Source: an uncultured Caryophanales bacterium (lineage in GTDB: Bacteria > Bacillota_I > Bacilli_A > RF39 > UBA660). From it: DNA of 36,724 bases. The position numbers and the translations under genes were made by a program. The DNA lies in NCBI GenBank assembly GCA_946408655.1, contig CAMJTE010000006.1, positions 1 to 36,724 of the forward strand, given 5' to 3'. Shown in pieces: positions 279 through 18,296 of this stretch. The notes under the pieces are model-generated. The model was given only the letters and a program-made list of their open reading frames with translations. It had not been told where the DNA came from and searched no databases. Within the stretch, counting starts at the first letter, position 1. The number at the start of each line of letters is the position of its first letter.

Positions 279-1133
279 ATGTCTGAAGATTTACAAAAAG
301 TTAAAACTCTGTTAAAAGTTAGAGGTTGTAGTGGTAGAACGGTAACCACCTACATCAGTTGTATAAACCGTTTTAAAAATTATTTTGAAGGAAGGGATTT
401 AGAAGATTTAAATGAAGAAGATATACTGGAATATATTAAAGTAAATTTTGTTGATTTAGATTATTCACCAGCTTCTATTAATGTTAATAGAGCTGCAATA
501 AAATATTACTATTTAGTTAATTTTAAAAAAGAACTTAATGATACATTATTACCATACTGTAAAGTTTATAGAAGGTATCCTTATATCCTTGATACAAGGG
601 ATGTAATAATTTTGCTTAATTCTACAAATAATTTAAAACATAAAATATGGATTGCTTTAGGTTATGGCTCTGGTCTTCGAGTACATGAAATTGCTAAACT
701 CAAAATAGGTGATTTTTCTCATAATCTTCACAAGATTAGGGTTGTTGGAAAAGGGAATAAAGAAAGATTTGTTCCATTTCCAGAATTCACCTATAGATTA
801 TTATTAAAATACTATGAAAAATATAAAAATGAAATTGAAAAAAATGATAATTGTTTATTTCCTAGCATAAGAAAAGACTATGATAGTATTCATGTTTCCG
901 AACAAACAATAAAAAATACTTTTTCAAAAACTAAGAAGAAATTTAATTTAGGACCTGAAGTAACTTTTCATACACTTAGACATTCTTTCGCTACAGATTA
1001 CATTAGAAAAGGTGGAGATGTTTGGAAATTAAAAAGTATGTTGGGCCATGATTCGATTAATTCAACTATGATATATCTTCATATGGCAAATGATTTTAGT
1101 GAAATCCATTCTCCATTAGATGAGGGATTATAA
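279..1133 (+). CDS. Tyrosine recombinase/integrase of the IS91-like element
   Basis: The 284-residue protein has the two-domain layout of phage-type tyrosine recombinases. An N-terminal SAM-like core-binding domain (about 1-95) contains the usual start of helical repeats, and the C-terminal catalytic domain spans about 100-275. The catalytic set is visible: Arg134 in GSGLRVHEI, Lys158 in GKGNKE, His231 and Arg234 in HTLRH, His257 in LGH and the nucleophile Tyr266 in STMIYLH. The start is an ATG preceded by GGGAGG. Its stop overlaps the next start (TAATG), so it is co-translated with the transposase. It probably acts in recombination or resolution of the element; whether it is needed for transposition is unknown. 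Confidence 0.9.
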   Translation: MSEDLQKVKTLLKVRGCSGRTVTTYISCINRFKNYFEGRDLEDLNEEDILEYIKVNFVDLDYSPASINVNRAAIKYYYLVNFKKELNDTLLPYCKVYRRYPYILDTRDVIILLNSTNNLKHKIWIALGYGSGLRVHEIAKLKIGDFSHNLHKIRVVGKGNKERFVPFPEFTYRLLLKYYEKYKNEIEKNDNCLFPSIRKDYDSIHVSEQTIKNTFSKTKKKFNLGPEVTFHTLRHSFATDYIRKGGDVWKLKSMLGHDSINSTMIYLHMANDFSEIHSPLDEGL

Positions 1134-2251
1134 TGTATACAGTACAAGATATATTTAAATTATATGGGCCTACTTATATTCAAAATCATAATCTTTCTAA
1201 AGAAGAATGGAAAGTTTATAATGCAATTATGAATTGTAAAACAGGTAGTTTAGGATATCACACTATTACTTGTGAACATTGTGGAAATACTATTACTGCA
1301 TTTAATAGTTGTCGTAACAGGCATTGCCCTATGTGTCAAGTGTATGCAAGAGAAAAGTGGATTAATAAAGAATCAGAATTCCTTTTAGATTGTCCATATT
1401 TTCATATTGTTACTACAGTTCCACAAGAGTTAAATGAAATCGCTTTATATAACAAGAAGGTTTTTTATAATATTTTATTTAAAGCAACAAGTGATGCTAT
1501 TATGACTTTATCAGAAGATCCAAAATGGCTAGGCGCAAAAGTAGGAATCACATCTATTCTCCACACTTGGGGACAAACAATGGAATTTCACCCACATATT
1601 CATTCGATTGTTACTGGTGGTGGGATTAAGAATAATAAATGGATTAATAAAAATAATGAATATTTATTTAAGGTTCAAGTATTATCATCTTTATTTAAAA
1701 ACAAATTCTTGGCTTTACTAAAAAAAGAAAATTTAACATTTCCTGAAAGCTTATCACATTTAAATGATAATAGGCAGTTTAACAAATTTCTAGAACCGCT
1801 TTATAAAAAACAATGGGTAACTTACATAGAGCCACCTAAAGGTTCTCCAGAAAATGTTATTGAATATATTGGAAGATATTCATTTAGAATAACTATATCT
1901 AATGAAAGAATAAAAAGTATAGATAATGGAATGATAACATTTGAATATAAAGATTACAAAGATAATGGAAAAATTAAACTTATGACTATAACAGCAGAAG
2001 AGTTTATTAGAAGATTTCTAATGCATGTATTACCTGATAAATTTACCAAAATTAAACATTATGGAATACTTACCAACAGAAACAAAAAAAGTTTAATAAA
2101 ACTTTGTAGAATGTTAATAAAGCAAGCTATCTATAGTGACTTTACAAGTGCGATAACAAGAAAGAGAAAATTACCTGAATTTGAATGTTCTGAATGTGGT
2201 CATAAAAAATTTATCTATGCCTTTTACTATCGATCCAGATGTGCAATTTAA
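1133..2251 (+). CDS. IS91/IS801-type HUH (Y2) transposase
   Basis: The 372-residue protein carries an N-terminal zinc-binding domain (Cys47, Cys50, Cys60, Cys65, Cys68; CRNRHCPMC). It then has the HUH metal-binding motif HPHIH at 153-157 and the two-tyrosine motif YIGRY at 245-249, with Tyr245 and Tyr249 as candidate nucleophiles. A conserved GILTNR follows at 311-316. The C-terminus has a second cysteine pair (CSEC, about 352-355) and ends within a further Cys-containing tail. The length fits IS91-family enzymes. It would nick the element end and move one strand into the target. The gene overlaps the recombinase stop by one base, indicating translational coupling. It appears intact. Confidence 0.92.
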   Translation: MYTVQDIFKLYGPTYIQNHNLSKEEWKVYNAIMNCKTGSLGYHTITCEHCGNTITAFNSCRNRHCPMCQVYAREKWINKESEFLLDCPYFHIVTTVPQELNEIALYNKKVFYNILFKATSDAIMTLSEDPKWLGAKVGITSILHTWGQTMEFHPHIHSIVTGGGIKNNKWINKNNEYLFKVQVLSSLFKNKFLALLKKENLTFPESLSHLNDNRQFNKFLEPLYKKQWVTYIEPPKGSPENVIEYIGRYSFRITISNERIKSIDNGMITFEYKDYKDNGKIKLMTITAEEFIRRFLMHVLPDKFTKIKHYGILTNRNKKSLIKLCRMLIKQAIYSDFTSAITRKRKLPEFECSECGHKKFIYAFYYRSRCAI

Positions 2252-10108: not shown

Positions 10109-10130
10109 CAAAAAAGTAGCTAAGCTACTT
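10109..10130 (-). terminator. Intrinsic terminator of the glucosaminidase operon
   Basis: On the minus strand AAGTAGC-TTA-GCTACTT is followed by a T-run. It includes the TAG stop of the 10125-11438 gene. It lies back to back with the plus-strand terminator at 10080-10105. Confidence 0.85.
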
Positions 10131-11438
10131 CATGTTTTTAATTCTATTAAACAAAATTAGTAAGAATAACATTAACATTAATATTGATGTTGAAAGTATT
10201 GCGATAGTTACTAAATATTTATTGTTAAGAATAGATAAATTTTCTAAATCTTGAGTCTCATACCTTTGTAATGTCTTATCTTTACTATCGTATCTATACC
10301 ATCCTAAAGAACCTGTATTAACATTCATTCCATATACTAAGTAAAAATCACTTTTCTTATTAGCCTTATAGGAAGTAACTTTATCACCATTTATATCAAT
10401 ATTAACTTTCTTTAGTCCTTTTGGAACACTACTAGGTTTTGTATAATATAGTTTAATACTATTAAAAGTTATTTCATGATAAATAGAATAAGATTTACTC
10501 TTAGGATCATATATATATAACTTAATATTACCTTTTTCATCTTTTAAACCAACTAGTATATAACCTGTAATCTCATTATATAAAGCAGGCACTTTTTTAT
10601 TATCAATACCAGCTTCAATTGGACTAAAATTATCAGGAGCAGTTAGTTGTTCTACTTTTTTTACAACATTATAATTCTTTTTACCTATCTTAACTTTTAT
10701 TGGATCAATATCTTTAACGTTAATAGTTATGCTATATACTCTTTCATTACCATTTTCGGCAATAACAGTAATTTTTATATTATTAACTCCATCAGTAAGT
10801 TTAATACTACCCGTTCCAATAATATTTGCGTTATCGTCACTTGGAGTAGCTGTAATATTAACACTCGTTACATCTTCATCTACATCAAGAGTATATTCTG
10901 TTTTTTCTTTATCAAAATCTAATTCATATCCTTCTACTTTTAAACTAGATAAATAATTATCAGAACTATACTCTTTATTAATATCTATTGTATCATCACC
11001 ATAGTCATAAGATTGCTTATTCTTCTTACTGCTTGATGAACCATTATTATTAGAATTATTGCCTCTACTTGGTTCTACAACTCTAACTGTAATAGATTTA
11101 CTAGTTGTATAATCCTGTTCATTTCCAGGTTCCATTGTAGTTGCCGATATAGGCGTAACTGTTATTGTCGCACTACCAGCCTTTTTAGCCGTAAAATTCG
11201 CACTTACAAAACCACTTTCAATCCAGTCAGTTTGCATACCTCCATCTAAAACCGAAGTATCACTAGAGCTAATTCTAAATTTACCCTCAATGCCATTTAG
11301 ACTAACAGAGATAGTTACTCTATCAGATACAGTAGCAGTAGTAGGGCTTGCTGAAACATTCATTGATGCAGCAAGCATGTGGGGTAAAAACATAATACTA
11401 GATAAAACTATAGTTATAAATAATAATATTTTTTTCAT
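10125..11438 (-). CDS. Membrane-anchored surface protein with cadherin-like beta-sandwich domain
   Basis: The 437-residue protein has a signal peptide (about 1-24). An Ig/cohesin-like beta domain (about 25-125) is followed by a Ser/Asn-rich linker (GNNSNNNGSSSS, 130-142). A cadherin-like beta-sandwich domain (about 160-243) holds YLSSLKVEGYELDF and the typical NGNERVYSI ending. A beta-rich region follows (about 250-400), then one C-terminal membrane segment (about 410-432) and a short basic tail. It is therefore held on the outside of the cell. It starts 8 bp after the glucosaminidase, and that gene's TAG stop is built into its AGGTG ribosome site. It may help place or anchor that enzyme. No catalytic domain was recognised. 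Confidence 0.8.
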   Translation of the reverse strand: MKKILLFITIVLSSIMFLPHMLAASMNVSASPTTATVSDRVTISVSLNGIEGKFRISSSDTSVLDGGMQTDWIESGFVSANFTAKKAGSATITVTPISATTMEPGNEQDYTTSKSITVRVVEPSRGNNSNNNGSSSSKKNKQSYDYGDDTIDINKEYSSDNYLSSLKVEGYELDFDKEKTEYTLDVDEDVTSVNITATPSDDNANIIGTGSIKLTDGVNNIKITVIAENGNERVYSITINVKDIDPIKVKIGKKNYNVVKKVEQLTAPDNFSPIEAGIDNKKVPALYNEITGYILVGLKDEKGNIKLYIYDPKSKSYSIYHEITFNSIKLYYTKPSSVPKGLKKVNIDINGDKVTSYKANKKSDFYLVYGMNVNTGSLGWYRYDSKDKTLQRYETQDLENLSILNNKYLVTIAILSTSILMLMLFLLILFNRIKNMK

Positions 11439-11445
11439 ACATCAC

Positions 11446-13515
11446 CTATTGTTCTATTGTTGACTTTCCAAGTACAACATTCTTTAATTTTCCATAATCA
11501 GCCGCAGTTACTGTTTTACTATGATTAACATCACTAGCTTCGATTTGAGCATCAGTTAAATTACTATTACCTAATACATAATTCTTAATTTTAGCATAAT
11601 CTACTGCAGTAATTTTACCATCACCATTAACATCACCATATACTACTGTTTTTAAAGTCTTTTCTTCATCTTTAGTTTTAATAGTTACACTATAACCTGT
11701 TTTAATAGTATCACTAGCAACTACTTTGCCAGTTGTATCTTTAATAGTAACAGTTGCATTACTTCCAATCTTATTTGTAATTTGATTAATATTAGAACCA
11801 ACACTAAATCCCATTAAATATTTATTATTATTCTTAATACCAGCGTTATTAAGTACATTCTCTACACTAACTTTATTATCTGAATTATCAGGAATAGGAG
11901 CAGCTTCTCTAATAATATTTATTGTGTAAGTACGTGTATCACCATTTTGTGCATTAACTGTGATATTATGTTTAGTATTATCACTTGTTAAACTAACATA
12001 ACCTGTCCCACTTATACTAGCATTAGAATTAACAGTTTCCGCATTTATAGTTACACTATTAACTCCACTTTTTACATAATAGTTATAATTAGTTACACCA
12101 CCATCAAATGATGAAACACTACTACCATTTATACTTAATGATTTTAAATAATTATTAGGATTTCCAGTATTAGGTAAACTAGTAGTTGCGGGCATATTAT
12201 TATAAACTGGAATGTAGAAGACAAATGAAGAGTCAAGTATTTTAGAATCATTATAAGATTTATATACTGAATTACCCTCAATCATTGGTGCTTGAATATT
12301 AGTTTGATATTGATGTTCAAAGTTATTACCACTTCTACTATTTACATTAGCAACTACATCCCATTTTTTAAAGTAAATTGTATTTTGTCCAATATTGATA
12401 TAGTTTTCACCAATCCATTTAGCCCCACCACGAATAGCTTTGTCTAAAGAATTCCATGGTCGATTATAAGTAGTAGTTTGATATCCACTACCTGTAGCCC
12501 AATAAAGACCATTGTATACTGGATTAGTTCCACTATATGCTCCTATATTATATGGATTATAAATACCGGAATAAGTATTTCCGTTATAAGTAAATGTTCC
12601 ACCACTTATTGCAGTAGTCGCATAACTATGTCCTCCTACTTCTTGTTTAGATAAAGAAGCAAGATATACTGGACTTACTTGTGACTCAGATGCCGCAGTT
12701 ATAAATGATGTTGCATAATTATTTAAATAATCTCCATTTAATAATTTTTGAACTACTGATAATGTTTGTAAATCTTTTTCATAAGCAAGTGCTTCAAACT
12801 GGAATACATACATATCAATTAAGAAATTTCTTGGATCCATATAGTAAGCAATAGTATCATAGTTAGCCGCAAACCAATCAGAACCATCATATGCTTTAAA
12901 TGTATCTGTATAGTAGTTATAAGAACCAGCCCAAGTATTTAGATAACCTACATTATTATAACCACCAGTTACCTCTAATAAACTATTTCCAAGAGTATTT
13001 TCACGACTTACAGCGTAATTAAAATCAATTCCTGTATTAACTGCAATAAACTTCCAATTAGGATGTGCAGCCTTTAAAATAGATAGTTTAGAAAAATAAC
13101 TCTCAGGAAATCCAGCATTAATAAATTCAGCCGTGTAGTTATTATCTACTTCCCCTTCTCTTTTTAGATTGCTATTACAGAAATATCCTGTATATACTTT
13201 AGATGGATTATTTTGAAATGAATAGTTAACTTTTACATAATAGGTATCACATCTAGTTTTATTAGGCGAAGCATAAGTTGCACCTTCTATTACGGTAACC
13301 TGATCTCCTGTATCAAGCCATACAACACCCGATACATATGAATCAAAATCAGTATCACGATATAAACACTTACCGGTTGAAGTACTTTTTAACTCACACT
13401 TAGCTCCATCAGTAATCAATACCGTTGCCTTATAATCAGCCTTAACAAAATTATTGAAAGCAAATACTGATACAAAGAAAACAAATATAAATATAAATCT
13501 CTTTAAACTATTCAT
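11446..13515 (-). CDS. Secreted beta-N-acetylglucosaminidase (LytD-like) with dockerin
   Basis: A 689-residue exported cell-wall hydrolase. In order it has a signal peptide (about 1-27), an SH3-like N-terminal module (about 28-115), and a glucosaminidase domain (about 130-430; KAAHPNWKF, and SKQEVGG with the likely catalytic Glu). A cadherin-like beta-sandwich domain follows (about 455-540; YLKSLSING, NGDTRTYTI). The C-terminus has two dockerin type I repeats (about 622-685). The first is canonical (DVNGDGKITAVDYAKIKNYV) and the second partly degenerate (DVNHSKTVTAADY). It would cleave glycan strands of peptidoglycan. I take the ATG at 13515, with AGGTAGG upstream, instead of the GTG three codons earlier. 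It forms an operon with the anchored protein downstream. Confidence 0.87.
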   Translation of the reverse strand: MNSLKRFIFIFVFFVSVFAFNNFVKADYKATVLITDGAKCELKSTSTGKCLYRDTDFDSYVSGVVWLDTGDQVTVIEGATYASPNKTRCDTYYVKVNYSFQNNPSKVYTGYFCNSNLKREGEVDNNYTAEFINAGFPESYFSKLSILKAAHPNWKFIAVNTGIDFNYAVSRENTLGNSLLEVTGGYNNVGYLNTWAGSYNYYTDTFKAYDGSDWFAANYDTIAYYMDPRNFLIDMYVFQFEALAYEKDLQTLSVVQKLLNGDYLNNYATSFITAASESQVSPVYLASLSKQEVGGHSYATTAISGGTFTYNGNTYSGIYNPYNIGAYSGTNPVYNGLYWATGSGYQTTTYNRPWNSLDKAIRGGAKWIGENYINIGQNTIYFKKWDVVANVNSRSGNNFEHQYQTNIQAPMIEGNSVYKSYNDSKILDSSFVFYIPVYNNMPATTSLPNTGNPNNYLKSLSINGSSVSSFDGGVTNYNYYVKSGVNSVTINAETVNSNASISGTGYVSLTSDNTKHNITVNAQNGDTRTYTINIIREAAPIPDNSDNKVSVENVLNNAGIKNNNKYLMGFSVGSNINQITNKIGSNATVTIKDTTGKVVASDTIKTGYSVTIKTKDEEKTLKTVVYGDVNGDGKITAVDYAKIKNYVLGNSNLTDAQIEASDVNHSKTVTAADYGKLKNVVLGKSTIEQ

Positions 13516-13538
13516 CACACACACCTACCTTCAATCTA

Positions 13539-17009: not shown

Positions 17010-17060
17010 ACACAAAAAGCGGGTGCAAGAGAATCGACTAAAGCCGCTTCTCTTGCACCC
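17010..17060 (-). terminator. GC-rich 13-bp hairpin with T-run, likely strong terminator
   Basis: GGGTGCAAGAGAA (17021-17033) and TTCTCTTGCACCC (17048-17060) form a perfect 13-bp stem with a 14-nt loop. On the minus strand it is followed by GCTTTTTGTG. It is about 175 nt downstream of the pilin-like stop. The stem is far more GC-rich than the surroundings. Confidence 0.7.
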
Positions 17061-17122
17061 CCTATCCCTTCACTTACTCTGGTTGCCAAGTTTATGCCAT
17101 CATTTATTTCATCATGTAGTCA

Positions 17123-17197
17123 GAAAGTGCCAAGATTATATCTTGACACTTTCCTCCGAGCAAGACAAGCTTGCCTTACAAATCACTTCGTGATTTG
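17123..17197. repeat. Two hairpins directly downstream of the pilin-like gene
   Basis: GAAAGTG-c-CAAGAT (17123-17136) pairs with ATCTTG-a-CACTTTC (about 17140-17153), a 13-bp stem with one mismatch. CAAATCAC-TTC-GTGATTTG (17179-17197) is a perfect 8-bp stem. CAAGCTTG between them is a short palindrome. No T-run follows either hairpin, so they are not obvious terminators. Confidence 0.6.
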
Positions 17198-17236: not shown

Positions 17237-18172
17237 CTAACTAACTTTAGTTATATCAGTAGATTTTGAGAGTTCAAGAACGGGACGGACCATATAACTG
17301 CTCGAAACACCGCCGTCGTCGCTGAGACCATTGACGAACACATTCCACACGTTAGAGGAGTCTGCTTTTGGAGTCATTGTCCAATACCAATAATTACTAT
17401 TATATACCCAAGTTGGGACATTTTCATTAACATCAGGATATACTCCAGCTCCTGCACTAGTTATACTCCAATCATATCCTAAATTAGGTAACAATTCATC
17501 AAATGTAATCAATCTTGCAGTTGCACTATCACCAGATTTAACCGCACCTTCTGCCCACTTATCTACTACTTGTTTTACTGTAGAAGTTGTGTAATCAACT
17601 GAACTTCCATATTGTACTTTTCCATATCCATTAGATTCTGATATAGTAATACCACTTAAATTTAAAGCATCCATTTCTGTTTTAGTAAGTGGATTTTCTT
17701 TTAATAGTTTTACTGTATCATTAGTAGTATCACTATCTTCTATTACATAGTATGTAACATTATTATATGATACATGATCACCTACAGTATATGCAGTATA
17801 AGTTGGAGCTGGTGGAGTCTTGTCAGTTCCATATGTATAATCTACTGTTCTTCCTCCTACTGTGCAACCTGTTAGATATACTGATGAATCAGAATTTAAC
17901 TGTGTAGTTGAACATTCAACTTTATTTCCACTATACTCAATAGTTAGTTGATCAACTGAAGTTGGGAATGTACCTGTATCTAATAAATATCCAGCAATTG
18001 CAAGTTCAATTGATCTACCATATGCATCAATGCTTCTTTTATCTGCTGCAATTCTAGCCTTTCTAATTATGTTCATTACCAGTGGGGTAACAATAAGAGC
18101 AAGTATAGCCATAATTACTAATACTGCAATCAATTCAATCAAAGTGAATCCTCTCTTTTTTAACTTTGTCAT
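17237..18172 (-). CDS. Type IV pilin-like protein with variable-looking C-type-lectin/FGE-like tail
   Basis: I start at the ATG at 18172, with GAGAGG upstream, giving 311 residues; the track start is 34 codons too early. The N-terminus KKRGFTLIELIAVLVIMAIL is a class III signal peptide cut before Phe by a prepilin peptidase. The hydrophobic helix is followed by a pseudopilin-type region with two Cys. The C-terminal half (about 190-305) ends in a pattern typical of FGE/C-type-lectin-like or DUF6273 domains: YWYWTMTP, VWNVFVNG and the closing VRPVLELS. The last ~80 nt before VRPV are GC-rich with C/T-ending codons, unlike the rest of the gene. It may be a surface or pilus-borne binding protein. 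Confidence 0.8.
   Translation of the reverse strand: MTKLKKRGFTLIELIAVLVIMAILALIVTPLVMNIIRKARIAADKRSIDAYGRSIELAIAGYLLDTGTFPTSVDQLTIEYSGNKVECSTTQLNSDSSVYLTGCTVGGRTVDYTYGTDKTPPAPTYTAYTVGDHVSYNNVTYYVIEDSDTTNDTVKLLKENPLTKTEMDALNLSGITISESNGYGKVQYGSSVDYTTSTVKQVVDKWAEGAVKSGDSATARLITFDELLPNLGYDWSITSAGAGVYPDVNENVPTWVYNSNYWYWTMTPKADSSNVWNVFVNGLSDDGGVSSSYMVRPVLELSKSTDITKVS
17275..17352 (-). other. Putative DGR-type variable region in the pilin-like gene
   Basis: In 17281-17340, 34 of 60 bases are G or C by hand count, in a genome near 30%. On the coding strand nearly every codon ends in C or T (TTC, GTC, CTC, AGC, GAC, GAC, GGC and others). This is the outcome expected when adenines of AAY codons in a template repeat are mutagenised. 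It lies at the C-terminus of a lectin-like fold just before VRPV, where DGR variable regions usually sit. No reverse transcriptase or template repeat is present in this window, so the call is inference. Confidence 0.45.
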
Positions 18173-18219: not shown

Positions 18220-18296
18220 GAATATAGTATACTATATATATATATTGCAAGCCTTTTTTTAAAATTTTACACATGATTTACAGTTTATATAAAAAG

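Follow-up and report, generated by a model that had tools for sequence, protein, structure and literature searches.

DGRs of the BPP-1 type need a hairpin after the variable repeat (VR) of their target gene, with GC-rich stems of 7 to 10 bp and 4-nt GRNA loops (PMC3240598). As reviewed in PMC12632263, which cites Macadangdang et al. 2024, DGRs of Bacteroides diversify type V tip pilins. In Faecalibacterium prophages, the DGR targets have a DUF6273 domain with a C-terminal VR (PMC11792537); this domain has been modeled as a C-type lectin (PMC10743442). Here, we describe a gene that, with a probability of about 93%, encodes a surface protein akin to type IV pilins and subject to diversification by a DGR.

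A type IV pilin-like gene and its GC-rich tail

The window, i.e. the whole stretch of DNA analyzed (36,724 nucleotides), is contig C6 of a MAG (1.44 Mb in 108 contigs, 84% complete) of a gut or rumen bacterium. The gene and its parts are as follows:

17237-18172, minus strand: gene of a prepilin-type protein of 311 aa, the presumed DGR target (Pfam N_methyl 4.4e-8, TIGR02532 3.5e-8)
18089-18160, minus strand: type IV prepilin N-terminal methylation motif (PF07963, 4e-8; residues 6-29 of the translated stretch)
17240-17806, minus strand: DUF6273-like C-terminal domain (PF19789, E=0.002, under the cut-off)
17285-17362, minus strand: putative VR of 26 codons, DSSNVWNVFVNGLSDDGGVSSSYMVR, delimited by its ungapped match to the class-1 template repeat (TR) of a very close relative (G004)

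The translation begins with MTKLKKRGFTLIEL, likely from the ATG at 18172, in favor of which an upstream ATG at 18274 was dropped, and the stop codon occupies 17237-17239. The earlier note, made from the sequence alone, had called the product pilin-like, and this was borne out by the prepilin motif that both Pfam and TIGR02532 found at the N-terminus. Both hallmarks of a type IV pilin, the methylation motif and a hydrophobic helix (residues 12-67 in the AlphaFold2 model), are present. The model (pLDDT 84.7, pTM 0.85) comprises a long N-terminal helix and a compact C-terminal domain. The lectin- or FGE-like nature that had been proposed for the tail segment found weak support in the sequence, where the DUF6273 match stays below the Pfam cut-off; the same profile matched four of eight pilin family members, at best with 1e-4. 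With the pilin model as query, Foldseek retrieved phage proteins with DUF6273, the lowest E being 1.5e-5, while C-type lectins came out on top among PDB structures at a non-significant level (E>0.1). The domain alone also retrieved the tip pilin 4eps of B. ovatus, again non-significantly and with no gain over the whole protein. As judged from the model, the C-terminal domain is probably C-type-lectin-like. PilB-like (PF00437) and PilC-like (PF00482) genes of type IV pilus assembly occur in 7/7 genomes of the genus. The VR-bearing pilin may serve as an adhesin and could be a tip, minor or major subunit of the pilus.

The mean GC of the window is 27%, and the island of 57% GC described previously was confirmed, as 34 of the 60 bases at 17270-17329 are G or C, a rare value for such a window. 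The limits given for the tail in the earlier note (17262-17352) turned out to be shifted, the TR-homologous segment being 17285-17362; the 60 bases from its starting point have 52% GC, equalled or beaten at 0.2% of window positions, and the GC of its full 91 bases is equalled or beaten at 0.08%. The 26 VR codons have a GC3 of 0.65, compared with 0.12 in the remaining gene (Fisher p=5e-9), and 46% of them end in C, as against 4% of the other codons. The preference for codons ending in C or T that had been ascribed to the tail was likewise recovered (81% of VR codons versus 49% elsewhere in the gene, Fisher p=0.002), as was the conserved C-terminal VRPV, which reads MVRPV.

Elsewhere in the window, a 692-aa protein (11446-13524, minus strand) pairs a cadherin-like domain with a dockerin domain of type I (PF00404, 3.8e-13), and its neighbor (10125-11438) combines another cadherin-like domain with a C-terminal hydrophobic segment. 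A tyrosine recombinase-like ORF (279-2251, plus strand) adjoins an IS91-type Y2 transposase.

Template repeats, reverse transcriptases and elements 3' of the variable repeat

Complete cassettes were found in genus-mates, in the order pilin with VR, MutS_I-like ORF, Avd-like ORF, reverse transcriptase (RT) and TR. The RTs have about 400 aa and GxxxSQ-type motifs (IGNPVSQ, IGSMSSQ, LGCVSSQ) where QGxxxSP would be, and the closest PDB sequence is 8ub7 'Reverse transcriptase' (E=1.5e-32), the DGR RT of BPP-1; on these sequence features, we place them in the DGR clade. The Avd-like ORF, read from the sister cassettes, matched the curated models NF033474 (about 3e-10) and bAvd (1e-9), both below their cut-offs, and also, with 1e-8, the PHROG 'Avd protein of DGR'. 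On contig C74 of the window's own genome (see below), the corresponding upstream part is unassembled. The ORF between the target pilin and Avd (L062 2734-3147, L057 2740-3162) matched PF01624 with 4e-8. Some DGRs are reported to include a MutS-like accessory ORF, and a link of this one to mismatch tolerance is possible. The TR lies directly 3' of the RT stop in six loci of sister genomes (L057, L058, L060-L063) and on C74. By sequence, the sister TRs form three classes, and after every one of them comes the motif ACAAGTNTTATTCCTC, which is strongly conserved right after the TR in L062, L060 and L057 and is likely part of the RNA bound by the RT. A pattern match to this motif with one mismatch was also noted on C34 and left out of consideration. 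Across the family, a DGR RT profile matched 92 of 193 sampled genomes at 1e-15, the weaker matches possibly including other DGR lineages or other RTs.

The window tail matches a template of G004, one contig of which (C11) has the same gene order and an almost unchanged AlaS; its pilin shares 97% identity with that of the window over the first 75 residues, where the contig ends. When the class-1 TR of G004 was used as a blind query of the window's own genome, the top match was 17285-17362 (E=1.6e-12). In the ungapped alignment of 78 bases, VR and TR differ at 13/26 adenines and 4/52 other bases (p=5e-5), so that 13 of the 17 differences lie at template adenines; with gaps allowed, the differences are 10/25 and 1/51, respectively. 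The four non-adenine differences may reflect a change in this genome's own TR or an indel. The template AAY codons read TTC, GTC, GAC, GAC, GGC and TAT in the VR, and an AAA codon reads CTC; the change of AAY to NNY accounts for the GC-rich, C- or T-ending codons of the tail. In window coordinates, the AAN codons of the template correspond to 17294-17296, 17312-17320, 17324-17326, 17330-17338, 17342-17344 and 17351-17353.

The comparison was extended to TR and VR from one and the same genome, using plain alignment scoring without a bonus for adenines. Six such pairs differ at 83/167 adenines and 3/341 other bases. Three of the pilins are from G001 (C19, 10/28 adenines and 0/51 other bases; C18, 12/27 and 0/58; C37, 18/32 and 0/55), one from G005 (C13, 16/26 and 1/61), one from G004 (C1, 12/28 and 2/59) and one from C74 (15/26 and 0/57, p=6e-10). 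With reversed TRs as a control, no score in the entire set exceeded 20.5, compared with 49-59 for the five pairs of G001, G004 and G005. On these alignments, the differences are almost confined to template adenines, as in DGRs.

The sixth pair resides in the window's own genome. Its contig C74 starts within a DGR RT, whose last 55 aa are encoded at 51-218 (profile A1) and were missed by RVT_1 because they alone had been assembled; a class-2 TR (about 288-376) and then a second pilin (681-1622) follow, and this TR and VR also differ by 12 bases in length, in frame. The earlier note had postulated an RT elsewhere in the genome and a template matching the tail except at adenines. A DGR RT was found in the form of the C74 fragment, together with its own TR and a pilin VR that diverges from this TR at adenines only, whereas the class-1 RT and TR expected for the window tail were not detected in this 84% complete MAG with RVT_1, profile A1 or the sister TR as query, and the template of the tail itself is known from the sister species. 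In G001 and G004, the class-1 cassette adjoins rpoC, the C-terminus of which is also absent from the assembly. Since rpoC is an essential gene, its locus was simply not assembled, and the absence of the neighboring cassette is therefore uninformative. Presumably, the class-1 cassette sits beside rpoC, in sequence missing from the assembly.

The only RVT_1 matches in this genome were rejected as DGR RTs, since they belong to a group II intron (C14) and to a retron of an Ec107-like kind (C36, L022 1213-2220); RTs of 321-329 aa similar to the latter occur in genus-mates. A fourth, shorter RT type of 365 aa with small ORFs beside it was seen in G005 (L059 1318-2412 on C26, and L180 on C8); no TR was recognized beside either copy, and that on C8 is broken into two frames.

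The elements located at and beyond the 3' end of the VR are as follows:

17269-17295, minus strand: constant VR 3' end and next codons, candidate IMH (initiation of mutagenic homing), ATATGGTCCGTCCCGTTCTTGAACTCT
17179-17197, minus strand: predicted hairpin CAAATCAC-GAA-GTGATTTG, 42 bases past the first base of the stop codon
17160-17174, minus strand: second short predicted hairpin, GCAAG-CTTGT-CTTGC, from the fold of a 90-base stretch
17018-17063, minus strand: long inverted repeat followed by a T-run, from an inverted self-match of the sequence; also on C65

The sequence ATATGGTCCGTCCCGTTCTTGAACTCT is also present on C65 and differs at its first base alone on C19 of G001; it would act as the IMH, with an approximate boundary. 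The first hairpin is identical on C19 of G001, while on C65 it reads CAAATACC-GAA-GGTATTTG, i.e. both sides of the stem have changed and pairing is kept. The 90-base stretch of the window that contains the hairpins has a DNA fold z-score of -3.4 (range for four such post-VR stretches, -2.2 to -4.1), and the chance of finding an 8-bp stem with a 3-base loop in 100 random bases of 27% GC is about 0.6%. Thus predicted, the hairpin fits what is expected after the VR of a DGR. The inverted repeat is likely the terminator of the pilin gene.

Proposed diversification and competing explanations

The same-genome TR/VR pairs, the DGR in the window's own genome and the sister-species template support the claim of the earlier note that the tail is diversified by a DGR. 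In the mechanism that we propose, the TR RNA would be copied by the error-prone DGR reverse transcriptase with Avd, the errors being placed at template adenines. The cDNA would then replace the VR at 17285-17362, in one direction only, guided by the constant 3' end and by the hairpin just past the stop codon, so that AAY codons of the template would become NNY codons. The pilin would be carried to the surface by the machinery of type IV pili and there expose a binding face that keeps changing. Such activity presumably persists in this strain at present.

The alternative that survives best, though we regard it as rather unlikely, is that the VR is a relic, written by a DGR in the past and fixed or slowly decaying since the class-1 cassette was lost. 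This would agree with the lack of that cassette in the assembly, and strains of Treponema denticola do keep VRs without an RT (PMC4891356). Decayed paralogs also exist: frameshifted VR-like tails or genes with a stop codon were found on C10 (shifted tail frame) and C65 (stop codon) of the same genome and on C29 of G001. However, the VR of the window, unlike the decayed copies, has near-perfect identity to the template outside adenines, a high GC and an intact hairpin; moreover, the missing cassette says little when the adjoining rpoC end is missing too, and another DGR is present in the genome.

The pilin family to which these copies belong is large, with 15 matches at E<=1e-20 in the window's own genome, 29 in G001, 22 in G004 and 37 in G005, which are not exact gene numbers because one gene can give several matches and a good number of genes are situated at the ends of contigs. 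Besides the gene described here, the window's own genome holds at least seven full or near-full copies. Across the family, the body of the protein is conserved and the tail variable, and most tails are decayed and have lost their match to the TRs. Among 69 long ORFs of the family set, similarity to any TR correlated with tail GC (Spearman 0.46, p=7e-5), which would fit formerly DGR-written tails drifting towards AT; it is a lead only, as the correlation was computed on related genes. A tentative extension, which we think doubtful, is that this small-genome gut lineage has several DGR cassettes at work in parallel, every one of them pairing a separate template class with a single pilin targeted at present, and that dozens of retired variants are archived. 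If so, type IV pilus binding would be diversified by hypermutation together with the expansion of archived copies. A second set of prepilin-like proteins of about 500 aa was also observed (G005 C26 71-1582, C27 and C39; G001 C13 7496-8998); these have conserved WLLSP...RPSLYL ends with a variable stretch between, and no match to the TRs was found for them.

Numerous paralogs per genome with a conserved body and a variable tail also make recombination plausible, and gene conversion of the pilE/pilS type could in principle shuffle the tails without any retroelement. Yet the TRs lie outside the pilin genes, directly after the RT, and differ from their best VRs almost solely at adenines, a restriction that gene conversion does not yield. 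This explanation is contradicted for the seven best VRs and, although it could still act on older tails, is very improbable for the window gene. Least probable of all, to the point of being negligible, is that the GC-rich tail came from a foreign donor or was shaped by ordinary strong selection on a binding loop, as the sharp GC shift inside an AT-rich gene is directly explained by the AAY-to-NNY change and the template is present in the same lineage.

Comparison with known systems

Adhesion, motility, DNA uptake and phage entry are among the processes driven by type IV pili. A type IV pilin whose end is written by a DGR would give a bacterium a surface organ whose binding diversity is programmed, and, with a DGR-like RT in about half of the 193 family genomes, this may be a common route of surface variation in uncultured gut and rumen bacteria. 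No report linking DGRs to prepilins was found in a literature search that lacked most subscription papers and all bioRxiv preprints.

The proposed system resembles the DGR of Bordetella phage BPP-1 (mtd/avd/TR/brt) in its RT and Avd, in the adenine-specific change of the TR, in the position of the VR at the target C-terminus and in the hairpin after the VR (PMC3240598). It differs from the latter in being chromosomal, in targeting a pilin instead of a tail fiber, in the MutS_I-like ORF that precedes Avd, in the presence of several cassettes per genome and in its predicted hairpins, which have GAA-like triloops and stems that are not GC-rich. As in Bacteroides (PMC12632263), the target of diversification is a pilus protein whose binding domain is C-terminal; the targets there are type V lipoprotein pilins, whereas those described here, from an Erysipelotrichaceae/Bacilli lineage, are type IV prepilins that bear an N-methylation motif. 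The Faecalibacterium prophage targets likewise have the VR at the C-terminal end of DUF6273 (PMC11792537), and DUF6273, also found in the tentaclins, has been modeled as a C-type lectin (PMC10743442); these are phage proteins, while here the DUF6273-like domain follows a prepilin N-terminus in one polypeptide. For TvpA of Treponema denticola, a genome can also hold multiple remote targets, not all of them with a cassette (PMC4891356), and two DGRs with 18 TR/VR-like loci are known for Trichodesmium (PMC8867640); the targets there are different, and the single pilin family described here draws on three TR classes. The mechanism is a known one, and the type IV pilin appears to be a new target class for a DGR system.
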